From NCBI GenBank assembly GCA_018266395.1, contig JAFEAM010000002.1:34689-98688 (forward strand): a stretch of DNA of 64,000 nucleotides, read 5' to 3'. The translations under genes were made by a program, and so were the position numbers. Below are positions 24,848-37,238 of the stretch, in pieces. Numbering within the stretch: the stretch's first letter is position 1; each line of letters starts with the position of its first letter. The notes under the pieces were generated by a model. The model was given only the letters and a program-made list of their open reading frames with translations. It did no database searches and had not been told where the DNA came from. The stretch is from Bacteroidota bacterium. Lineage in GTDB: Bacteria; Bacteroidota; Bacteroidia; Cytophagales; Cyclobacteriaceae.

Positions 24848-26953
24848 CTACCTTCTCCTTCCGCCACCCCCGCCTCTCGCTCCGCCTCCGCCAAATCCAC
24901 CGCCACCCCGGTTCATCTGCTGGAAGCCTGCGTTCTGGTTTGAACTTCGCTGACGGTTCTCATAATCCCGGTTCATGTTGTTGCGCTGGTCTGCCTGGTT
25001 CCACTGATTTCCGTTGCGCTGGGACCAGTCTCCATTATCACCGCGCTGATAGACATTCCCGCTTCTGTCGCCATACACATCATTTCGACCTCTTCCAGTC
25101 GGCTGTTGTGAAGCTTTCGGCTGCGAAATATTGTTCCCCTGACTGCGGCGATCACCTGCAGGCTGTTGCGAAGCTGATGGACCACGTTGACGGTCGCGTG
25201 TGGCGACGTCATTGCGGCCATTGTAGATATTATTGGAGCGATCAATGTTGATGTTTCCATTGTTGATGAACGTGGGCCCCCGACCGCCATACATTCCGCC
25301 ACGATAGGGAGGATAATAAGGAGGACGATACATGGGAGGTCCCCAATAGCCGCCACCGCCATAGATACTCATGTGAAACCATCCATAACTCATGTGAAAT
25401 CCCATGCTCCATCCTGTCCAGGGATTATAGTGCATGCTGAAGCCGTAGGTAACCGGCTGGGGATAATAGTAAGGACCATACCAGGGGTTGTAATAATATC
25501 CGGTACCATATACTACCGTTCCCCCGTAAACATAACAGCCTGTATAACCAGGAGTGTATCCCACGTAGACCACCTCCGGCGTGCTGTCATAAATGTAGAC
25601 GTACTGCAACGGATAGGCTGGTGAACTAGCAGGTATCTTGTCCACTTCCTTGGGCCGCTCATCACTCACCTTCCATGGACCTTTGGGTGAATCGGCAACA
25701 AACCACACGCCTGTCTCCACACAGTAATATTTGTTTCCAGATTGAAGGACTTTACTGGTGGTGTTGACAGCCAGCGAGAGCGATGTTCCTTCAATCTTCT
25801 CAAACTTGGGCTCGCCGTCATAGGTGACGGTGCACGTTGCCTTCTTCCTGTCCACCTTGGCCGTTTGAGGGATCTGCGCATCCATTACCGCCATCCTGCT
25901 AGCGGGTGTGCCCGGTACACTGGCCAGCACGTTATCCTTTTCAGATCCTTCAGGAATGTTTGCGAAGTCTTTTGGGAGCTGATCACCAGAAATGTAAGCC
26001 CAGGGTCCCTTCAGATCCGATGCCGCATACCACCGCCCGGAAAGCAGCACGTAGAATTTCTGATCTTCAATACTCTTGAATATATCATCCTCTGAGTTTG
26101 ATATGTAGAGAAGAGATGTCTTCTGAATGTTGACGTATTGCGGTTCGCCTTTGGATTGGATGAGTTCAGCAGATGTAAGACTCACCAATACAGCAGGCTT
26201 TTCGTTGGTTACCGGGGCCTTACCTTCCGTTTCTTTTTTCAATTGCTTGTCCAGGGACTGAATCCTCTTCGGCAGTTGTGCCGCCAAATTATAGTCTTTT
26301 GCGACCAAAGCAGAGACATACCAGTTCTGGCCGCCATATAAATAGTATTTCTTGTCATCAGGATTCTCAACTATGAGAAAGGGTGTATTGATCACCTTGT
26401 TCATACCCAGCTTCTCGTCTTTCTTGAGACGCGGCTCGCCATCAATGAGTACAAGGGTGGTGGGTTCAGTCTTAAAAATAATTTCAGGAGCATTGTTCTT
26501 AAAATCGGCGTTGACGGCCTCCTGCTCCTGTTCTATGGTGGCGGCAATATCATCGAGGGAAGCCACAATTTCCCATTTGGGTATTTCCTTTTCCAGGAAT
26601 GCCTTCAGCTTATTGATCTTGTTTTCATCTGTAACACCGGGAAGCCTTACTTCCGAAATGGTGATGCTCTCAAGGGTAGCCGTACGGGTATCTCGATCAG
26701 TAACCAGGGTCGCGTTGTACCAGAACACACCGAACTGCAATTCATCACCTGGCAATTCTTTTGCAGAAAAGGCTGCCCTGCCGACAAGCCGATCACCCTT
26801 GAGGCTTTCCGGTTGCGGCTGATAGATGGTGATGACACCTCCTTTTTCGGTTTTAAGTTCCTTGGGCCATATGGATTCAGCGTTCACGACCAGTGAAAAA
26901 AGGCTGATGAAGGGAATCAGTAGAATTCCTGTTTTGTTGAAAAATGTTTTCAT
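24848..26953 (-). CDS. Exported repeat protein with Tyr/Gly-rich and Arg/Gly/Asn-rich tail
   Basis: A 701-residue protein with a signal peptide (SLFSLVVNAES). The folded N-terminal half has three diverged repeats, each ending in a pattern like YYLYGGQNWYVSALV, FYVLLSGRWYAASDLKGPW and YYCVETGVWFVADSPKGPW. After about residue 450 comes a Tyr/Pro/Gly/Trp-rich segment (YYNPWYGPYYYPQP), then a long Asn/Gln/Arg/Gly-rich tail ending in poly-Gly and RRR. Relatives are annotated as hypothetical or carbohydrate-binding envelope proteins. Function unknown; the tail looks disordered and very basic. Confidence 0.75.
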   Translation of the reverse strand: MKTFFNKTGILLIPFISLFSLVVNAESIWPKELKTEKGGVITIYQPQPESLKGDRLVGRAAFSAKELPGDELQFGVFWYNATLVTDRDTRTATLESITISEVRLPGVTDENKINKLKAFLEKEIPKWEIVASLDDIAATIEQEQEAVNADFKNNAPEIIFKTEPTTLVLIDGEPRLKKDEKLGMNKVINTPFLIVENPDDKKYYLYGGQNWYVSALVAKDYNLAAQLPKRIQSLDKQLKKETEGKAPVTNEKPAVLVSLTSAELIQSKGEPQYVNIQKTSLLYISNSEDDIFKSIEDQKFYVLLSGRWYAASDLKGPWAYISGDQLPKDFANIPEGSEKDNVLASVPGTPASRMAVMDAQIPQTAKVDRKKATCTVTYDGEPKFEKIEGTSLSLAVNTTSKVLQSGNKYYCVETGVWFVADSPKGPWKVSDERPKEVDKIPASSPAYPLQYVYIYDSTPEVVYVGYTPGYTGCYVYGGTVVYGTGYYYNPWYGPYYYPQPVTYGFSMHYNPWTGWSMGFHMSYGWFHMSIYGGGGYWGPPMYRPPYYPPYRGGMYGGRGPTFINNGNINIDRSNNIYNGRNDVATRDRQRGPSASQQPAGDRRSQGNNISQPKASQQPTGRGRNDVYGDRSGNVYQRGDNGDWSQRNGNQWNQADQRNNMNRDYENRQRSSNQNAGFQQMNRGGGGFGGGGARGGGGGRRR

Positions 26954-27001: not shown

Positions 27002-27724
27002 TCACTGGGTTACCGCACCAAAAAACATGATGAACCTCAACCTCCAGATGCTGTCCACAGTATCAAAGGACTGGTCGATGGTTTCACGCGATTGTTGAAA
27101 AGCATAAATGAACTGGAATCGGTATTGATAGTTTAGCCTGTAACCGAGACCGAGACGGGTCTTGAAGATATTGGCAAATCTTTCCCCCACATTTTTGTCC
27201 ATAACAAAAAAACCTTCCACGTCGGTGATGGCATAGAGTTGTTTGTTTTCGAAGAAGGTCTTTCGGTTTATTGGCACGAACACTTCAGTGAATAGCCGGA
27301 CGCGGTTGCTGATCTCCATTTCCCCGCCTTCAGGCTTCACCATCCGGTAATCATATCGCAATACAGCCCGGCTTTCAATCCGACCGCCCGTCGTTATCGT
27401 GTAACGCATGGCAGGACTCAGTCTGGTTTCATAGGTACGAAGCTTATTGCTTTGCTGTACCCAATACAATGGCACGGAAAACATCAAATCGATCTTGGGC
27501 GACATACTCCGCTGGATGGTGGGGGTAATCATCAGGGCTCGCCAGGGGTCCTGACCCGAAGTCACTTTTTCAAAACTGGCTTCAGTATCAAAAACCCAGA
27601 CGTTGGCGAATGGATAGACCCCCTGAAGGTCCGCCCACACCTGTGTATCATATGACTTCTGCCCTGAAGCGGACAAGACCGGCAACAATCCTATAAGTAA
27701 GAAAGCAATTTTCCGGAAACCCAT
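27002..27724 (-). CDS. DUF2490 outer-membrane beta-barrel protein
   Basis: A 240-residue protein with a signal peptide (LLPVLSASGQ) and alternating amphipathic strands throughout (TQVWADLQGVYPF, RAVLRYDYRM, YRFQFIYAFQQS), the pattern of DUF2490 barrels. It starts 1 nt after the amidohydrolase stop and is the last gene of the seven-gene amide/aspartate operon. A pore or surface role is likely, but substrate is unknown. Confidence 0.8.
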   Translation of the reverse strand: MGFRKIAFLLIGLLPVLSASGQKSYDTQVWADLQGVYPFANVWVFDTEASFEKVTSGQDPWRALMITPTIQRSMSPKIDLMFSVPLYWVQQSNKLRTYETRLSPAMRYTITTGGRIESRAVLRYDYRMVKPEGGEMEISNRVRLFTEVFVPINRKTFFENKQLYAITDVEGFFVMDKNVGERFANIFKTRLGLGYRLNYQYRFQFIYAFQQSRETIDQSFDTVDSIWRLRFIMFFGAVTQ

Positions 27725-27725
27725 T

Positions 27726-28832
27726 TCACTTCAAATGTAGCTTCTCCCATTGGCGGACTTTGTGACGGGCATCATCAAACAGTCTGATGTAGTTTCTCAG
27801 CCTGACTTTTTCACTCGTTTCCCTATCTAGCAAATTCCAGAGAGGCGCATACATTTCATAAACGGAATAATAGGACTTCTCATCAGGAGGTGCCACCACA
27901 TCTGTGCCGAACAGAAAGCGATCGGGGAAGCGGTTCAACAAACCTGCTGTGTTTTGCGTTGCCTGAGGCGAAGAGACTACATACTTGGCAACTTCATCCC
28001 ACGAGATGTCAAAATAGACATGCTGCAGAGTGGGATCGCTCAGTATTTGTTCTACAATATCAATGTGTGCTGTGCTTCTTTCCGGCACAGCGGATCCGCC
28101 GTAGGTAGCGGGACTCACAACTCGACCGAGACCCGTATGAGCCCAGATAATGGTTGTCTTCGGATGTCGCCTCAGCAATTCTTTCACCTGCGTGAGATAG
28201 ACCGGCTCTGACTTGGCTTTCGCGAAGGGCACATCGATATCATTGTGTAGAATAACGAGCAACCCGACTTTACCTGCGAAGTCGAGAATACTGTCCAGCG
28301 CCGGGTTTGTGAGGCTGGCTACTTCACCAGCCACTTTGGCTGAAACGAACTCCTTGTGAATACTGAATTCACCTATTCCAGTAAAAACGCCCGGGAAAGT
28401 CTGAAGCACGCGTTGAATATGTTTCCAACCGTACATGTCTGCCGGATTGAAACCTGTGATCATAGGGTCAAATCGCGCCTGCTGCTCAGGTTTCAGGTGA
28501 CTGTACTGCGTTGCGATCCATGCGTCTGTGAAGGAGTAGTAATACAGGGGCGCATCGCTTTGCAAATAATAGGACGGGCCATAGCTGCCGGAGTTCTGGT
28601 AGGACCACTGTTGCTGAAGGGGAATTCCAAACAATGTGGACCTTCCAACGTTGTCACCCATCAATTGCAGATAGCGCTCTATGGTAATTCCTTCCTGGAT
28701 GAAATTGGTTAAGTGAAAATGAGAATCGTTGAAAAGTATCTGCTTGTTCGGCTGGGCGTAAGCAGACCAAAACTGAAGGCTGCAAAATATCACTGCCAGC
28801 AGTAATCGACGGTCTTTCCCTTTCCCGTTCAT
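27726..28832 (-). CDS. Exported amidohydrolase-2 family metal-dependent hydrolase
   Basis: A 368-residue protein with a signal peptide (FWSAYAQ). The TIM-barrel metallohydrolase motifs are NDSHFHL (His-x-His) near residue 37, VILHNDID, IIWAHTGLG and FGTDVV with the late Asp. It overlaps the glutaminase gene by ATGA, so the two are coupled. In this operon it might act on an amide or N-acyl derivative of Asp/Glu or Asn/Gln, which is inference only. Confidence 0.8.
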   Translation of the reverse strand: MNGKGKDRRLLLAVIFCSLQFWSAYAQPNKQILFNDSHFHLTNFIQEGITIERYLQLMGDNVGRSTLFGIPLQQQWSYQNSGSYGPSYYLQSDAPLYYYSFTDAWIATQYSHLKPEQQARFDPMITGFNPADMYGWKHIQRVLQTFPGVFTGIGEFSIHKEFVSAKVAGEVASLTNPALDSILDFAGKVGLLVILHNDIDVPFAKAKSEPVYLTQVKELLRRHPKTTIIWAHTGLGRVVSPATYGGSAVPERSTAHIDIVEQILSDPTLQHVYFDISWDEVAKYVVSSPQATQNTAGLLNRFPDRFLFGTDVVAPPDEKSYYSVYEMYAPLWNLLDRETSEKVRLRNYIRLFDDARHKVRQWEKLHLK

Positions 28833-29860
28833 TTTGTCCGTGGCTCTACCAGGTAGGGATTGACTTTCAATTCACGCGACACTTCAAAAATTGCCCGCTG
28901 TGCTTTTACGCTGTTACCTGCTTCATTCAGAGGAGGTGATATGGCAGCAATCCCGAATTTGCCTGGGCACACTGCAATGATTCCTCCGCCAACTCCCGAC
29001 TTTCCCGGAAGACCAACTGCAAACAACCATTGACCGGAGTCATCATATAATCCGGCGGTAGCCATCACCGAAAGGGTGAATGCCGCTGTCTCCGGAGAAA
29101 CCACTTTTTTCTTTGTGACAGGATTGAAACCTCCGTTTGCCAGCGTAGCCGCCATCGTAGCGAGGTCGCGCGTGTTCACATTGAGCGCGCATTGCTTGGT
29201 GTAAATGTCGGTGGACTGGACTGGATCAAAATACATTCTGTTATAAGCAAACAGCAGGTGAGCGATGGCCTGATTTCTGAGGTTGTCACCGGCCTCGCTG
29301 ATATAGACAGGGCGGTTGATGTCCAGAGGTCTTCCCGCGAACTCACTCTGTATTTGAATGATGCTCTTCCATTTGGCAGCTGAGTCAGCTCCTGCCACCA
29401 GACTGGTGGTAGCAATGGCACCAGGATTTACAAGAGGATTGATCTCTTTGCCTTTCTGCAACTCAATGGCAATGATGGAATTGAAGCGAAGTCCCGTTGC
29501 ATCTACACCGATCTTGTCCATCACGGCCTTTGGACCTTGTTCTTCGAGAACCCTGGCAAGGGTAAAGACCTTTGAAATGGATTGTATGGAAACTCTGGAA
29601 TCCAGGTCGCCCTTGTAGAACACCTGACCATCTACAGTTACAATGCAGATTCCGAAGATATTGGAATCCACCGACGCCAACTCCTTAATATAGTCAGCAT
29701 TCTTTCCCTCTTTGATGTCCTTGCATTTCTCAAAGGCGTGATCAACCGCCAGCTGATACGGGGAAATCACCACTTCCGTCTTTCCTTTTTTTGCCTGCCC
29801 GGAGGCGTTCCAGGTCAGGAAAAAGACACCGGCGATAAGGAGACTGAATATACGCTTCAT
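28829..29860 (-). CDS. glsA: Glutaminase with signal peptide
   Basis: A 343-residue serine-dependent glutaminase (beta-lactamase-like fold) that converts glutamine to glutamate and ammonia. The catalytic Ser94-x-x-Lys97 is in QSISKVF; LVNPGAIATTSL and SGVGGGIIAVCPGKFGIA are further family blocks. Most bacterial GlsA proteins are cytoplasmic, but this one begins MKRIFSLLIAGVFF..NASGQ, a clear export signal, so it should act in the periplasm together with the neighbouring asparaginase and aspartase. Confidence 0.92.
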   Translation of the reverse strand: MKRIFSLLIAGVFFLTWNASGQAKKGKTEVVISPYQLAVDHAFEKCKDIKEGKNADYIKELASVDSNIFGICIVTVDGQVFYKGDLDSRVSIQSISKVFTLARVLEEQGPKAVMDKIGVDATGLRFNSIIAIELQKGKEINPLVNPGAIATTSLVAGADSAAKWKSIIQIQSEFAGRPLDINRPVYISEAGDNLRNQAIAHLLFAYNRMYFDPVQSTDIYTKQCALNVNTRDLATMAATLANGGFNPVTKKKVVSPETAAFTLSVMATAGLYDDSGQWLFAVGLPGKSGVGGGIIAVCPGKFGIAAISPPLNEAGNSVKAQRAIFEVSRELKVNPYLVEPRTK

Positions 29861-29875
29861 AGGATTTGACTTGGC

Positions 29876-31090
29876 TTAGTTCTTGTAGAAGGATTGCAGA
29901 AAATTGTATTTGAAGGAGAACTGAATTTTGGTTGCAGAAGTGGACCAGCCATCGGAATAGTTCTCTCGGGTGATGTGCTGGAACTCTACACCACACATGG
30001 CGTTGGTGGCCGGATACCACATCAGATTGGCGGCGAAATAGTTTCCGCGCTTATATGCGTTGGAAAGCTGCCCATCCGAATTGGTAATGTTGACCATTGA
30101 CCAGCCAATGGCTGTTGAGAATTTTTCATTCCACCGGTGGTCCACGAAAGTAACCACGCCGAGTACCGGCAATGCAACGCCTTTGATCGGGCTCACCGGA
30201 TTGGTGAAGTCATTCTTGATCCCAACATCAACAGGAGCATCATTCATGTAGTTCTGAATGCCTTGTCCATAGACGACCTGGCCACGGAAAACATCACTTT
30301 TGGTAAAATTGACATTGGTGCTCAGGTTAAGTCCCCAACCCAATGCCTTTCCACTGAAGTCGGTGACGCCTTTGTTCTGGTCAATCCACTCGATGCGCCG
30401 CAGAATGCCGGCTAACTCTACATACCCAAAACCGGTAGCCTTATGATATTCCGCTGATAAGTCGGGAAGCGCAAATCTTGGCTTGACACCTGTGAGTTCG
30501 ATTCTGTTTGCATAGACGCCCTGATCAGCGCTTGCACCCGGTCGTTCCAGCGCAATGGTCAGCCGGGTGTCGCCCTGGATTGGCATGTACCGGAACTGAA
30601 CGTTACGGAAGAATACCATTCCGCTCGGCCCCCAGTATTCTACTGTATTGGGAAACACATCGATATCCATAAACGGGCTCCAGTATTGTCCCACACCGAA
30701 TTTTCCAAGCTCGGCATAGGCGTGACGGAGACGTATGGTGGTTTGACCTGCGTCTACGCCTGTGCCGAACATTTCAAATTCAAAGTGTGTCTTTAGTTCT
30801 CCCAGCGGGGTTTCAAAATAGTTCTTCACCCCAAAGCGCGTCTGGCGAACGCTCATGTAAGTGTTGCCATCCGTGCCAAACTCATTCTTATAAGAGGGAA
30901 GTTTGGTGGGACGCATGACATCAAACCAGTTGGGATCCACCTGGTTGAAATTATATCCCATGTCCATCATGATAAACCCATAGAGGTCCATGGTCTTCTT
31001 CTTTTCCTGATCCTGGGCTGTAGCGGGACTGAGGGAGACAGCGAATACGATCATTAGTAACAGTTTCTTTAGGTCTTCGAAAAGGTTCAT
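29876..31090 (-). CDS. DcaP-like outer-membrane porin
   Basis: A 404-residue exported barrel protein (signal ending SPATAQ). LYGFIMMDMGYNFNQVDPNWFDVMRP, the RQTRFGVKN block, GQYWSPFMD and VEFQHITREN match the DcaP trimeric porin family; the longest quoted piece spans residues near 35-60. In other bacteria DcaP-type porins pass dicarboxylic acids. Located between asparaginase and glutaminase, it is the likely entry or exit pore for the amino acids or dicarboxylates handled by this operon. Confidence 0.8.
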   Translation of the reverse strand: MNLFEDLKKLLLMIVFAVSLSPATAQDQEKKKTMDLYGFIMMDMGYNFNQVDPNWFDVMRPTKLPSYKNEFGTDGNTYMSVRQTRFGVKNYFETPLGELKTHFEFEMFGTGVDAGQTTIRLRHAYAELGKFGVGQYWSPFMDIDVFPNTVEYWGPSGMVFFRNVQFRYMPIQGDTRLTIALERPGASADQGVYANRIELTGVKPRFALPDLSAEYHKATGFGYVELAGILRRIEWIDQNKGVTDFSGKALGWGLNLSTNVNFTKSDVFRGQVVYGQGIQNYMNDAPVDVGIKNDFTNPVSPIKGVALPVLGVVTFVDHRWNEKFSTAIGWSMVNITNSDGQLSNAYKRGNYFAANLMWYPATNAMCGVEFQHITRENYSDGWSTSATKIQFSFKYNFLQSFYKN

Positions 31091-31101
31091 GAGAAATCCT
31101 G

Positions 31102-32202
31102 TTAGTATTCGTAATACAGTTTCTGAATCTCATCGAGTTTCCGAGGCTTCAGCAAGGCAACTGAAAGAAGAATTCTTGCTTTCTGCGGGTTGAGGTCATA
31201 AGAAGCAACCAATCCCAGTTTATCATCATCCACCTCAACATTCCGCCCGACATTTCCGGTGGCCACGCGCGTACTCCTGACAACAACTACTCCTTTCTTG
31301 CTTGCCCGGGCACAGGCATCAAGTCCCGCTTTGTTCATATTACCGTTGCCAACACCTGCAATTACGATTCCTTTGGCGCCGTGTTCCACGCTGGCGTCAA
31401 TCAAGTCGGCAGGCATGTCCACATCAGCGTAAATAATATCAACCCTTGGAAGTGTGGTTACACCATCGACTGAGAACTCGCTCTGGGAGCCAAACTTGTT
31501 GTGTGGGTAACGATAGTACTCATTTACGCCATAAGCGGAAGTTCCGATCAGACCGCGGAGGGGAGACATGAAAGTCTGCACAGCCGTTGTGCTCACTTTT
31601 ACCAGTGTCTGGGCCGAGTGAATCCAGTCATTCATAACCAGCAAAACGCCATGGCCTTTCGCCTTGGGGTCTGCGGCCACAGCGACAGCGTTATACAAAT
31701 TGAGCGGACCATCTGCACTAACAGCGGTGGAAGGCCTCATGGAGCCCACCAGTACTACGGGCTTATCCGTCTTAACCACCAGATTGAGAAAGTAAGCTGT
31801 CTCTTCCATGGTGTCTGTACCATGCGTGATGACGATGCCATCGACATCCTTGCCGGCAGCCAGCTCGGCGATTCGCTTGGCCAGTTGAAGCATGATGGCA
31901 AAGCTCATATCTTGGGATCCCACGTTGGAGATTTGCTCGCCTTTGATATTGGCCAGTTTCTTGATGTCGGGAACGGCATTGACCATTGCATCGATGGTAA
32001 CTTGTCCTGATGTGTAACCCGCTTGTGTTCCCGAAGCGGCAGCGCCGGCAATGGTGCCACCCGTCGCGAGGATTACAACATTAGGAAGTTGTTTGTTTTG
32101 GGAAGTCGTCTGGGCCAGTGATGGAGATGCCAAAATCAGCGTCATCAATCCTGCCAAGATGAGACGAACGATACCTTTGTGGATTTGTGTGTTAGTTTTC
32201 AT
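31102..32202 (-). CDS. ansB: Type II (periplasmic) L-asparaginase
   Basis: A 366-residue asparaginase with a signal peptide (LASPSLAQ). The two catalytic Thr motifs are present: TGGTIAG at residues 47-53 and THGTDTMEET at 126-135. It hydrolyses asparagine to aspartate and ammonia in the periplasm. The gene lies 29 nt behind aspartase and 11 nt ahead of the porin. Its product is the substrate of the exported aspartase encoded just upstream. Confidence 0.94.
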   Translation of the reverse strand: MKTNTQIHKGIVRLILAGLMTLILASPSLAQTTSQNKQLPNVVILATGGTIAGAAASGTQAGYTSGQVTIDAMVNAVPDIKKLANIKGEQISNVGSQDMSFAIMLQLAKRIAELAAGKDVDGIVITHGTDTMEETAYFLNLVVKTDKPVVLVGSMRPSTAVSADGPLNLYNAVAVAADPKAKGHGVLLVMNDWIHSAQTLVKVSTTAVQTFMSPLRGLIGTSAYGVNEYYRYPHNKFGSQSEFSVDGVTTLPRVDIIYADVDMPADLIDASVEHGAKGIVIAGVGNGNMNKAGLDACARASKKGVVVVRSTRVATGNVGRNVEVDDDKLGLVASYDLNPQKARILLSVALLKPRKLDEIQKLYYEY

Positions 32203-32231
32203 ACTCGTTTTCCTGGGTGTTTCATTTAATG

Positions 32232-33686
32232 TTATTTCTTCTGACCGGTCATTGTGGCCGGATCCATTAACTTCTTGATCTGTTCCTCCGTCAGGAGTTT
32301 CTTCTCACGGATAAGTTCTATGATGCCCTTGTTGGTTCGTAGTGCCTCGGCTGCCAACTCGGTGGTTTTCTCATAACCCAGCACAGGGTTGAGGGCCGTT
32401 ACCGTTCCGACGCTTTTTTCGATGTAATGGTTGAGAATGGCAGTGTTGGGAGTAATGCCTTCAATACATTGTTTCCTGAATAATGGCAGTGACTTGTAGA
32501 GCAATCCTTGTGATTCCATGATGGAAATGGCGATGACCGGTTCATAAGCATTGAGTTGCAACATTCCTGAATGGGCAGCCATGGAAACCGTAGCATCATT
32601 GCCCACTACTTTGAAACATACTTCATTCATCAATTCGGGCATGACAGGATTTACCTTGCCGGGCATGATGGAGGATCCGGGCTGCAAAGCGGGGAGGTTG
32701 ATTTCAAACAGTCCGGTCCTTGGACCTGTCGTAAGCAGGATAAGATCACTGCTGATTTTGGACAAGGTGAGCGCATAACTCTTCAGCGCTGCAGAATACA
32801 TTACAAATCCTTGCATGCTTGAAGTGGCTGCAATGAGGTCCTTGCTGAGCACCATAGGCTTGCCGGTAATTTTGGCCAGGTGAACAGCGACCTTTTCAGC
32901 GTACCCGGGAGTGGCGGTGATGCCAGTACCAATGGCGGTCGCCCCCATGTTCTGCTCATATAGGTAGGCTTCATTCTTTTTCAGCGAAGCAATCTCTGCA
33001 TCGAGTTGATTGCCGAAAGCATGAAATTCCTGGCCCAACGTCATAGGCACGGCATCCTGGCCTTCAGTCCTCCCCATTTTTACAATGTCCTTGAACTCAT
33101 CACCCTTTTTGTGAAAAGCCTGGGAAAGTCCTTCAGCTTCTTTGATGACCTTATCATTGTGCAGAAGGAGTGCAACCTTAATAGCGGTTGGGTATACATC
33201 ATTGGTCGACTGCCCCATGTTCAGGTCGTCATGTGGTTCAACGAACTGGTACTCGCCCTTCTTGTGACCGCTCAACTCAAGGGCAATATTTGCCAGCACT
33301 TCATTGGCATTCATATTGGCAGAAGTACCTGCTCCCCCTTGATAGAGATCTACAAGGAATTGCTCGTGATATTTGCCATCCATTACGGCCTGACAAGCTT
33401 TCTCAATGGCGGCAAGTTTCTCTGGTTTCAATCTCCCGGATTCAGCGTTGGCACGGGCGGCGGCCAGCTTCACCATCGCAAAGGCCCTGACGTAATCAGG
33501 ATAAAACCGGGTCGTGACGCCGCTCACCTGGAAGTTTTCCAGTGCGCGTGAAGTCTGTACGCCATAGTAAGCATCAGCGGGGACCTGCTTTTCACCCAGC
33601 AGGTCTTTTTCTGTTCGTGTCTGTGCGTTCAGGGAGAATGCTGAAACGACGACCAGGATCATTGTAAACTTGATTGAATAGTTCAT
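32232..33686 (-). CDS. aspA: Aspartate ammonia-lyase with a signal peptide
   Basis: A 484-residue member of the fumarase/aspartase superfamily. Active-site segments are intact: TSANMN (121-126), GQSTND (158-163) and the signature GSSIMPGKVNP (337-347), so it should convert aspartate to fumarate and ammonia. The core homology begins at RTEKDLLGEKQVPADAYYG; normal AspA has only a few residues before it, while this protein has 23 forming a signal peptide (MNYSIKFTMILVVVSAFSLN-AQ). Exported aspartase is unusual. It sits 11 nt behind the Dcu carrier and 29 nt ahead of asparaginase. Confidence 0.93.
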   Translation of the reverse strand: MNYSIKFTMILVVVSAFSLNAQTRTEKDLLGEKQVPADAYYGVQTSRALENFQVSGVTTRFYPDYVRAFAMVKLAAARANAESGRLKPEKLAAIEKACQAVMDGKYHEQFLVDLYQGGAGTSANMNANEVLANIALELSGHKKGEYQFVEPHDDLNMGQSTNDVYPTAIKVALLLHNDKVIKEAEGLSQAFHKKGDEFKDIVKMGRTEGQDAVPMTLGQEFHAFGNQLDAEIASLKKNEAYLYEQNMGATAIGTGITATPGYAEKVAVHLAKITGKPMVLSKDLIAATSSMQGFVMYSAALKSYALTLSKISSDLILLTTGPRTGLFEINLPALQPGSSIMPGKVNPVMPELMNEVCFKVVGNDATVSMAAHSGMLQLNAYEPVIAISIMESQGLLYKSLPLFRKQCIEGITPNTAILNHYIEKSVGTVTALNPVLGYEKTTELAAEALRTNKGIIELIREKKLLTEEQIKKLMDPATMTGQKK

Positions 33687-33697
33687 AACGGGAATGT

Positions 33698-35062
33698 TTA
33701 AAGAAGAATCGATTGAAGAATGAGACCGGCAACCACCGATGCAATGGTGGTGACGATGCCGGGTAGCATGAAACTGTGGTTCAGTACAAATTTTCCTATT
33801 CGTGTTGTTCCGGTGCGGTCAAATTGAATGGCTGTAAGCAGGGTGGGATACCCGGGAACAAAGAAGTGCCCGTTGACTGCAGGAAATATCCCCACCAGGT
33901 AGGCAGCAGGCATGCCAAGTGAAAGGCCAAGTGGCATCATCGCCTTGGTAGTCGCTGCCTGGCTGAACAACATGATGCTGAGAATGAAGAGTCCCAGCGC
34001 AAAGGTCCATGGCTGACTTGCGACCAGTCCCCCTAAGGCATGCTGGATCACTTCATAGTTGTTGTTCATGAAAGTGCTGCTCATCCAAACTACACCGAAA
34101 ACAGCAATGGTGGCCTGACCAGCGGAAGCAAACAGGGAAACTTTAGTCACCTGGTTCGCTGTGGTCTTTGCAAACAGGATAATAAAGCCTGTGGCAGCAA
34201 GCATAATCATCATAATCATGGAAGGCATTTGTACCTGGCCTGCTGAATTGACTGCAAAGCCGGGCTGAAATCCGGGATGCTCTGCAAAAGATGGCAGCAG
34301 TGCAGGGAAGAAACCAAGAGCAACCACAGCCAGAACAGCAAGACCGAAAATGATAACGGAAGAGACGGCTCCGGCACGCAATTCAGACGACTTGTCTTCT
34401 GAATCTTTTCCCATTTGAGCTGCAAAAGCAGGATCTTTCATCCGTTCCAGGAATTCAGGATCCTCATCCAGCTCTTTGCCACGCCTGAACACAAAAAGAA
34501 CGCCAACGAGTACACCGATCAAAGTTGACGGGATGCAGATCAATAGGATATCACCTAATTTAATCCCGGCCGTGCCCAATACTGAAAGCAATGCCGCTGT
34601 CGCTGCCGACACGGGGCTGGCCGTGATTGCCATGTGTGCAGCGGTTACGCTCATGCTCATCGCCCTCTCCGGTCTGATCCTCTTTTTGATTGCGACTTCA
34701 GAGATGATGGGCATTATTGAATAGGAGATATGTGCTGTACCCGCAAAGAGGGTGAAGAAGTAAGTAACCACCGGCCCCAGGAAAGTGATCTGCGATGGCC
34801 GGCTCCGCAAAATCCGGGCAGCGATTTGCACGAGATATTCCATACCGCCGGCTGCCTGCAAAGCAGCAGCTGCGGTTACCACGCTGAGAATGATCAACAT
34901 TACCTCAAGCGGCGGGTCTGACGGCTGCAGATCAAAAACAAATAGCAGTACCAGCAAACCGATCATGCCCATCACACCCAAGCCGATACCGGACATCCTA
35001 GCACCCATGAAGATGCAGAAGAGGATGACCAGGAGTTGAGCAGAGATAAGCATAGTTTCCAT
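33698..35062 (-). CDS. dcu: Anaerobic C4-dicarboxylate transporter, DcuA/DcuB family
   Basis: A 454-residue inner-membrane carrier with about ten hydrophobic segments and the DcuA/B-type blocks LFAGTAHISYSIMPIISEVA and GHFFVPGYPTLLTAIQFDRTGTTRIGKF (only key parts quoted). These carriers exchange fumarate, malate, aspartate and succinate. It is the first gene of the operon that makes aspartate and fumarate in the periplasm, so it probably imports fumarate or aspartate against succinate. A or B type cannot be fixed from sequence. Confidence 0.9.
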   Translation of the reverse strand: METMLISAQLLVILFCIFMGARMSGIGLGVMGMIGLLVLLFVFDLQPSDPPLEVMLIILSVVTAAAALQAAGGMEYLVQIAARILRSRPSQITFLGPVVTYFFTLFAGTAHISYSIMPIISEVAIKKRIRPERAMSMSVTAAHMAITASPVSAATAALLSVLGTAGIKLGDILLICIPSTLIGVLVGVLFVFRRGKELDEDPEFLERMKDPAFAAQMGKDSEDKSSELRAGAVSSVIIFGLAVLAVVALGFFPALLPSFAEHPGFQPGFAVNSAGQVQMPSMIMMIMLAATGFIILFAKTTANQVTKVSLFASAGQATIAVFGVVWMSSTFMNNNYEVIQHALGGLVASQPWTFALGLFILSIMLFSQAATTKAMMPLGLSLGMPAAYLVGIFPAVNGHFFVPGYPTLLTAIQFDRTGTTRIGKFVLNHSFMLPGIVTTIASVVAGLILQSILL

Positions 35063-35249: not shown

Positions 35250-35309
35250 TTCATATTATTAGAAGTTTACGAACAGGAGACGTTCCGTCTTTTCTAATAA
35301 TTCATATTA
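35250..35309. repeat. Inverted repeat with flanking direct repeats in the dcu upstream region
   Basis: Arms ATTATTAGAA (35255-35264) and TTCTAATAAT (35292-35301) enclose a smaller GAAC/GTTC hairpin. The 9-mer TTCATATTA occurs at 35250-35258 and again at 35301-35309. No gene is encoded here. It might be a cruciform regulatory site, an RNA structure or a small mobile remnant. Confidence 0.5.
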
Positions 35310-36113: not shown

Positions 36114-37238
36114 ATGAAGGCGCTGTGTACTGTGATAGTAGTTGTGTTTGGTCTGATCGCGACCTCACATGCTCAGGTTTATTCTGACAAGATTGTAGGG
36201 AAGAAGAACACAGCACTGGCCGACAGCATCAAATCAAAGGAATATCCATTTGTCCTGCCTATCTGGGGTGCAAAGGCAGCCAAGCTCGGATTTGATCTTC
36301 CGTATTCGGCGGGCATGAGTGTACAATATGTATGGCAGGAATCAGATCTGATCATCGACAACCTCCAAGTGGGATTCAACAATGGACCCAAGACCAACAT
36401 GGATCAGATTATTCGTTTCAACAATGCACGCTCAACAGCCAGCGGTGTAAATTTCAGACCTGACATTTGGCTTTTTCCATTTCTAAATGTTTATGGCCTC
36501 TTTGCAAAGGCCCAGCCCTCCACTGCCGTTGATTATGGTATTTGGGTGCCGGATGGTTCAGGTACATGGAAACAAGTAGTTGCCCTGAACTCGAAAGCTA
36601 ACTTTGATGCGACTACGGTTGGATTTGGGTTGACTCCCACCATCGGCGTAGGAGGAGGCTGGCTAGCGTTGGATATGAACTTCGCCTGGTCCAGCATTGC
36701 GGCCTTAAAAGATCCTGCTTACACTTTCATCTTCGGTCCAAGGATGGGAAAAACATTCCGTTTTCATAAACACCCGGAACGCAATATTGCTCTCTGGGCC
36801 GGGGGCTTCCGGTTGAAATTGAACTCCGGGACAGAAGGATCAATTAACGTAAGTGATGTACTGCCGATTGATCAACTGCAAGCTCAACTGGCGCAAGGAT
36901 ATCAGAAGGTGGGAGATGCACAGGCATCAGTGGATACATGGTGGGCAGGTCTCACTCCTTTGGAACAGACCAATCCGGTAAACAAAGCCAGGTACGAAAC
37001 CGCCAACCAGGCCCTGGCCAAGGCGGGCTCCTTTCTGAATTCCGCATCGGCGGCTGTTGACAAGGCCAGCCAGGGCACCGTGCAGTACTCCCTAGACAAG
37101 CGACCCAAAGACATGTGGAATTTCGTTGTGGGTACTCAGTTCCAGTATAACAAACACGTCATGCTGAGGGTAGAGTACGGTTTCATGGGGTCTCGCACTC
37201 AACTGATCACCGGCCTGCAGTACCGGTTCGGATTGTAA
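36114..37238 (+). CDS. Putative outer-membrane protein, unknown function
   Basis: A 374-residue exported protein (signal ending ATSHAQ). The body has barrel-like strands (MSVQYVWQESDLIIDNLQVGF, FLNVYGLFAKAQ) and ends in a classic C-terminal strand RTQLITGLQYRFGL. An insertion at about residues 245-330 is helical and Ala/Gln-rich (QLQAQLAQGYQKVGDAQ), perhaps an extracellular or periplasmic arm. It is followed after 13 nt by another barrel gene on the same strand. Confidence 0.65.
   Translation: MKALCTVIVVVFGLIATSHAQVYSDKIVGKKNTALADSIKSKEYPFVLPIWGAKAAKLGFDLPYSAGMSVQYVWQESDLIIDNLQVGFNNGPKTNMDQIIRFNNARSTASGVNFRPDIWLFPFLNVYGLFAKAQPSTAVDYGIWVPDGSGTWKQVVALNSKANFDATTVGFGLTPTIGVGGGWLALDMNFAWSSIAALKDPAYTFIFGPRMGKTFRFHKHPERNIALWAGGFRLKLNSGTEGSINVSDVLPIDQLQAQLAQGYQKVGDAQASVDTWWAGLTPLEQTNPVNKARYETANQALAKAGSFLNSASAAVDKASQGTVQYSLDKRPKDMWNFVVGTQFQYNKHVMLRVEYGFMGSRTQLITGLQYRFGL

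Follow-up and report, generated by a model that had tools for sequence, protein, structure and literature searches.

Aspartase (aspartate ammonia-lyase) is a textbook cytoplasmic enzyme, acting on aspartate inside the cell. The available part of the report on Actinobacillus succinogenes describes an AnsB–DcuA–AspA scheme in which it stays there (PMC10634366); elsewhere, in accounts likewise available in part, aspartase is noted to adjoin Dcu (PMC9386147) and an exported asparaginase is found in vesicles of Bacteroides thetaiotaomicron (PMC9397113). Here we describe a seven-gene cluster in a 64,000-nucleotide stretch of a Cyclobacteriaceae genome of the phylum Bacteroidota (the window; contig JAFEAM010000002.1, positions 34,689 to 98,688), which encodes an aspartase with a predicted signal peptide (Table 1). 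Because aspartase is cytoplasmic in the described scheme, the window system would be a relocated variant of it. We think it likely that this putative operon encodes an extracytoplasmic line of deamidation and deamination, whose fumarate is taken up and whose ammonia is left outside the inner membrane. This variant of a known pathway is conserved and, it seems, undescribed; no periplasmic or exported aspartase was reported in the literature searched, whose coverage took in few subscription papers and preprints, and matching titles among those listed appear to concern periplasmic asparaginase and similar subjects.

Six of the seven products begin with a signal-peptide-like N terminus (judged by eye and by hydropathy), as the first-pass annotation had it; the remaining product is the membrane carrier Dcu. 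In the window aspartase, residues 1–21 stand before an AQ/T junction, and the N terminus fits the form of a cleavable Sec signal, free of a lipobox, for a soluble periplasmic protein. Relatives share this architecture: an extension of 20–40 residues with a basic start, a hydrophobic core and usually an A-x-A/Q end, followed by R-T-E-x-D-L-L-G, is present in all 27 rows of one aspartase group (hereafter exported-type), its sequence varying within the group while its form is retained. None of 37 other aspartases has it; in these the start lies close to the mature position or follows a cyclic nucleotide monophosphate (cNMP)-like domain. The N termini of the asparaginases, porins, glutaminases and amidohydrolases across the compared loci look exported too. 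The hydropathy score, a crude measure that takes the best 10-residue value, is 2.68–3.02 for the six non-Dcu products; among Escherichia coli comparison proteins, those labelled soluble score −0.6 to 2.03, membrane proteins 1.83–3.75 and dsbD, with a signal peptide, 2.8. The pattern is more than chance: the aspartase signal is retained in 27/27 members of its clade, and the neighbouring genes recur in other Bacteroidota. The earlier proposal that both aspartase and glutaminase are exported thus gains support from their predicted N-terminal signals, kept clade-wide for aspartase.

The exported-type aspartases (27 sequences from 26 genomes; L015 and L038, which have equal coordinates, come from one genome) form a single clade in a quick IQ-TREE analysis of 66 mature parts, with a Shimodaira–Hasegawa-like approximate likelihood ratio test (SH-aLRT) value of 100 and one change of label on the tree. 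The clade sits on a long stem (0.76 changes per site), and the window enzyme is placed among aspartases, away from fumarase. Members come from Flavobacterium, Flavihumibacter, Pollutibacter, Chryseosolibacter, Algoriphagus, a Cyclobacteriaceae and others. The 37 other aspartases are the nearer ones among the best matches and represent no census; L002 (FumC), L003 (argH) and L067 (the window gene over again) stand outside all counts, L037 outside the residue counts and E. coli AspA outside the 1.5-kb neighbour count. Starts of L004, L031 and L058 were moved to an inner Met for the tree and residue comparison, and left at the first ATG for the N-terminus and hydropathy comparison, where L004 scores 1.11 and L058 1.89. 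Among the other aspartases, 15 of 37 carry, judged by length, an N-terminal extra domain of ~150 residues, which is a cyclic-nucleotide-binding domain (PF00027) in the two scanned (L044:1048-2913 and L060:1066-2928); this suggests a nucleotide-controlled aspartase in some Bacteroidota.

The mature part of the enzyme changes together with the extension. At the amine-pocket position, next to the amine of the substrate, all 27 clade members have Glu, compared with Gln in 35 and His in 2 of the 37 others; window Glu208 corresponds to E. coli Gln191 and, in an alignment with a Bacillus enzyme variant (8rj1), to AspB His188, a position whose equivalent also touches the amine of the product, according to the available part of the source (PMC11744663). 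Seven columns are fixed in 27/27 members and rare or absent elsewhere, with E. coli Asn135 replaced by His and Arg299 by Ile throughout the clade (Asn and Arg in 37/37 others). Three cysteine columns are empty in the clade (0/27) but filled in 29, 25 and 34 of the 37 others, and mean cysteine number is 4.0 versus 7.0. The cysteine loss fits an oxidizing compartment and is independent of the N-terminal evidence. The window enzyme has the family fold, and the other catalytic motifs, GAGTS, STND, GRT and GSSIMPGKVNP, are unchanged in all three clade members that were looked at. Our claim for the window enzyme is that it works like an aspartase and belongs with the aspartases on the tree; it does not extend to a certified AspA.

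The genes around it recur. On the same strand and within four genes of the exported aspartase, a type II asparaginase lies in 25/25 loci with enough context, a porin in 23/25 and Dcu in 15/25; at a distance of up to 1.5 kb, 27/27 exported-type loci have asparaginase or Dcu, against 2/37 other aspartases. The association of these core genes recurs in other Bacteroidota; all seven genes in this exact order were seen in the window alone. The porins are of DcaP or Porin_O_P type, and relatives of the window DcaP with 67–71% identity adjoin exported aspartases in Flavobacterium, Flavihumibacter, Pollutibacter and Chryseosolibacter. In one Algoriphagus locus the porin position (L027:11444-13074) reads as broken open reading frames, from sequencing error or decay. 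The window Dcu matches E. coli DcuB at 307 bits and DcuA at 281 bits; across loci, bit scores favour DcuB in 16/16, often slightly, whereas identity favours DcuA in L028, L033, L077 and L082, and a tree did not decide between the two types. Dcu could import fumarate, aspartate or both. DUF2490 relatives are present in four other compared loci (L020, L022, L079 and L083).

Further genes accompany the cluster in some lineages. A Na+/H+ exchanger (PF00999) follows it on the same strand in L022 (14862-16070), L079 and L083; in L081 it stands close by in the opposite orientation. It may relate to ammonia or pH. Divergent from the operon, the window encodes a 374-aa probable outer-membrane protein without a Pfam match (36114-37238), relatives of which lie near exported aspartases in L018, L020, L076 and L081. 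Predicted regulators beside the cluster differ in kind by lineage (L015–L019, L018:7815-8678, L078, L080 and L020): some are OmpR-like/TPR by eye, L080 has a sigma-54 activator by eye and the window has a LysR gene, and control of the cluster seems to have been replaced often across lineages.

Most carriers searched have only the exported aspartase above threshold. The window genome encodes one, its other lyases being fumC (TIGR00979, 770 bits, cut-off 665) and argH; it has one type II asparaginase (the cluster copy) and one type I, and the cluster glutaminase is its only PF04960 match. Among 23 exported-type genomes searched whole at E ≤ 1e-115 or 1e-120, a second aspartase was absent from 19, thresholds that a very distant one would escape. 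This tally comprises 6 genomes of the family draw, 3 of 7 of the phylum draw (the window genome being in both) and 11 of 12 further genomes; G336 and G507 are one genome, present in both the phylum draw and the further set, which L033 stands outside. The exported type is uncommon: it was found in 7 of 395 genomes of the phylum draw (identity at least 66%; 59 with any match at E ≤ 1e-120) and 6 of 118 of the family draw (identity at least 60%; 12 with any match), the window genome included in each. Genome contigs were probed with six short peptides of the window aspartase.

Sequences from the family of the window genome (Cyclobacteriaceae) branch at several separate points in the aspartase tree, a pattern suggestive of transfer from one family to another. 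Two genomes of the same genus lack both the exported aspartase and the neighbouring 374-aa gene; this absence, with the scattered tree positions, fits sporadic transfer or loss. A mobile element was considered and set aside: guanine plus cytosine content is flat across the region (0.45–0.51) and no boundary was found, these checks being the extent of the boundary search.

All seven open reading frames proposed from the sequence by the first-pass annotation lie exactly at its coordinates, closely spaced on the minus strand, and Pfam and NCBIfam profile searches agree with the families it named. From dcu to the DUF2490 gene the intergenic gaps, taken from the coordinates, are 11, 29, 11, 15, −4 and 1 bp, the −4 being the start of the amidohydrolase gene overlapping the stop of the glutaminase gene. 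The asparaginase exceeds its type II cut-off (314.3) and has 1wsa as closest solved chain. The glutaminase passes both TIGR03814 (346.1 versus a cut-off of 255.4) and PRK12356 (cut-off 395), with YbaS (1u60) as closest solved chain, and Dcu passes TIGR00770 (478.1 versus 331.35). Upstream of dcu, 287 bp separate it from the next gene. Between a 209-aa gene and dcu we noticed by eye an inverted repeat, TTATTAGAA...TTCTAATAA (window 35257-35302), possibly a regulatory or terminator element. A promoter scan was uninformative (18 promoter-like sites versus 17.6 expected) and a terminator scan gave no clear help (22 terminator-like sites versus 15.4 expected).

Table 1. Genes of the aspartase cluster, in window coordinates, with the match or relationship behind each assignment
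Feature	Position	Strand	Basis
Dcu C4-dicarboxylate carrier, 454 aa	33698..35062	-	PF03605, 469 bits
Aspartase (aspartate ammonia-lyase), predicted signal peptide, 484 aa	32232..33686	-	PRK12273, 655 bits
Type II asparaginase, predicted signal peptide, 366 aa	31102..32202	-	TIGR00520, 442.9 bits
DcaP-type outer-membrane porin, predicted signal peptide, 404 aa	29876..31090	-	PF19577, 78 bits
Glutaminase A, predicted signal peptide, 343 aa	28829..29860	-	PRK12356, 441.1 bits
Amidohydro_2-type hydrolase, predicted signal peptide, 368 aa	27726..28832	-	PF04909, 41 bits
DUF2490 protein, probably outer-membrane barrel, predicted signal peptide, 240 aa	27002..27724	-	PF10677, 50 bits
701-aa protein, predicted signal peptide, probably next gene of the unit	24848..26953	-	relatives adjoin the cluster in L077 and L023

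The glutaminase and amidohydrolase are rarer than the core and linked to one another, and we therefore regard them as an optional add-on. At E ≤ 1e-30, 3 of 296 genomes encode the amidohydrolase (the window genome, G237 and G407), all with an exported aspartase, from which it lies 6–12 kb away in G237 and G407; G142 and G300, from the same draw and at the same threshold, have an exported aspartase but no amidohydrolase. Both genes occur together at four places (window, L021, L076 and G407). The order in G407 is DcaP, glutaminase, a 460-aa outer-membrane-like protein, amidohydrolase and a relative of the 701-aa protein; in L021 and L076, too, the glutaminase and amidohydrolase genes flank this third gene. 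A sequence search of solved structures up to E = 1 gave no match to the amidohydrolase, and its predicted structure (two-row alignment of window and L021) had a mean predicted local distance difference test (pLDDT) score of 56.7, too poor for a fold search. That it is an upstream supplier of glutamine or glutamate is no more than a guess. The 701-aa gene, whose product has no Pfam or NCBIfam match, begins 48 bp downstream of the DUF2490 gene. Since it recurs beside the cluster, behind the amidohydrolase gene in L077 and before Dcu in L023, the unit probably extends past 27002.

The scheme we favour would run as follows. Porins would admit asparagine, glutamine and aspartate to the periplasm, where asparaginase would convert asparagine to aspartate and the exported aspartase would split aspartate to give fumarate and ammonia. 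Glutamine would become glutamate through the exported glutaminase. Fumarate rather than aspartate would then enter the cell, via Dcu where present and probably against succinate or another C4-dicarboxylate, and feed central metabolism, with ammonia released outside the inner membrane. The logic of a route from asparagine through aspartate to fumarate, which had been proposed from the window sequence, is supported. Historically, the aspartase would have gained its signal peptide once, in the clade ancestor, and then adapted to the new compartment by losing cysteines and exchanging the amine-pocket Gln/His for Glu, the gene set dispersing sporadically through Bacteroidota. We lean, with less assurance than for the pathway itself, towards one Bacteroidota aspartase lineage having been exported and rebuilt for the periplasm, where it replaced the cytoplasmic enzyme in most carriers, so that fumarate is imported and nitrogen left outside. 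As to purpose, we can only guess at the use of asparagine and aspartate as carbon sources without the import of nitrogen.

Other explanations account for parts of these data. The extension might be no export signal at all, with aspartate imported by Dcu and degraded by a cytoplasmic aspartase in an ordinary AnsB–Dcu–AspA pathway. That is the scheme given for A. succinogenes in the available text (PMC10634366), and in two loci an aspartase that lacks a signal has these partners for neighbours (L013, with asparaginase and Dcu; L028, with Dcu, and asparaginase and porin further in the block). We hold this to be very unlikely for the exported type, whose extension runs from basic residues through a hydrophobic core to an A-x-A/Q-like end and keeps this form as its sequence differs, while the mature part has lost cysteines along with it. 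The lyase could instead be exported and act on an aspartate derivative or a different amino dicarboxylate, yielding no fumarate from aspartate. Clade-wide fixation of the pocket Glu, Asn135His and Arg299Ile, the long stem and a missed aspA equivalog cut-off would suit such a change; set against them, the catalytic motifs are intact, the gene is always beside an aspartate-making type II asparaginase and the window enzyme scores far closer to aspA (TIGR00839, 604.9 bits) than to fumC_II (442.6 bits), and a different substrate seems to us quite unlikely.

Two further proposals concern what the unit is for. Three ammonia-releasing enzymes in one cluster, together with the Na+/H+ exchanger genes near four loci, could point to ammonia release as the main role, whether for defence against acid or to supply the neighbourhood with nitrogen, fumarate being a by-product, and pH homeostasis is named in the accessible portion of PMC10634366 as one role of the cytosolic version in A. 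succinogenes. The porins and Dcu indicate carbon uptake, however, and no acid-response regulator was identified here, which makes this purpose unlikely. Fumarate respiration, which Dcu carriers serve in described species (PMC10634366, part available), is a use to which we give similarly little credence: the window genome encodes two full-length FAD_binding_2 flavoproteins, but both lack an N-terminal export signal (L086 and L087), so that reduction would be cytoplasmic. On the evidence of these two, the strong ones among 21 PF00890 matches, a periplasmic fumarate reductase was set aside.

Several observations weigh against the extracytoplasmic line that we nevertheless prefer. Hydropathy ranges overlap (the lowest value in the exported clade is 1.95, the highest among other aspartases 1.89, and E. 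coli CutA has 2.03); the score alone fails to part the classes, and the comparison across relatives therefore carries the weight. The L004 aspartase shows its signal only from a second start codon. Dcu was not seen within four genes in 10/25 loci, where another importer would be needed, and 4/23 exported-type genomes also keep a second aspartase, 49–53% identical. The residue changes that mark the clade all fall on one stem branch and are thus no independent events. The window enzyme scores below the curated aspA cut-off of 681.2 bits, and the genome's own FumC also passes PRK12273; together these leave the substrate unproven. What the sequences themselves show is the identity of the genes, their N-terminal signals, the single clade, its residue changes and the gene linkage, whereas export, catalysis, transport direction and purpose are inferred from them.

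If the extracytoplasmic scheme is correct, the carbon and nitrogen of asparagine and aspartate would be separated before uptake, ammonia would go to the surroundings, and loss of the products would pull the reversible aspartase reaction. The amine-pocket Glu and the cysteine loss would allow the adaptation of an enzyme to another compartment to be put to the test, and a default cytoplasmic aspartase in metabolic models of Flavobacterium, Algoriphagus and Chitinophagaceae would call for caution.

Compared with described systems, as far as the available part of each report allows, the window cluster shares asparaginase II, aspartase, Dcu and the sequence from asparagine through aspartate to fumarate with the AnsB–AspA–DcuA cluster of A. 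succinogenes (PMC10634366) and with E. coli aspA–dcuA. There, aspartate is imported to a cytoplasmic aspartase, whereas in the window the aspartase carries a predicted signal and an outer-membrane porin and the glutaminase–amidohydrolase pair have joined. In Prevotella bivia, also of the Bacteroidota, asparaginase and aspartate ammonia-lyase activities that turn asparagine into fumarate and ammonia were measured, with location given only as the soluble fraction (PMC8585091). For the evolutionary step, AnsB^s, found in some strains of Campylobacter jejuni, offers the nearest precedent (PMC4178425): there too a Sec signal sends an enzyme of amino-acid breakdown to the periplasm and so gives access to an otherwise unused substrate. 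In that organism asparaginase was moved and AspA acts on imported aspartate; in the window, the aspartase would have moved as well.

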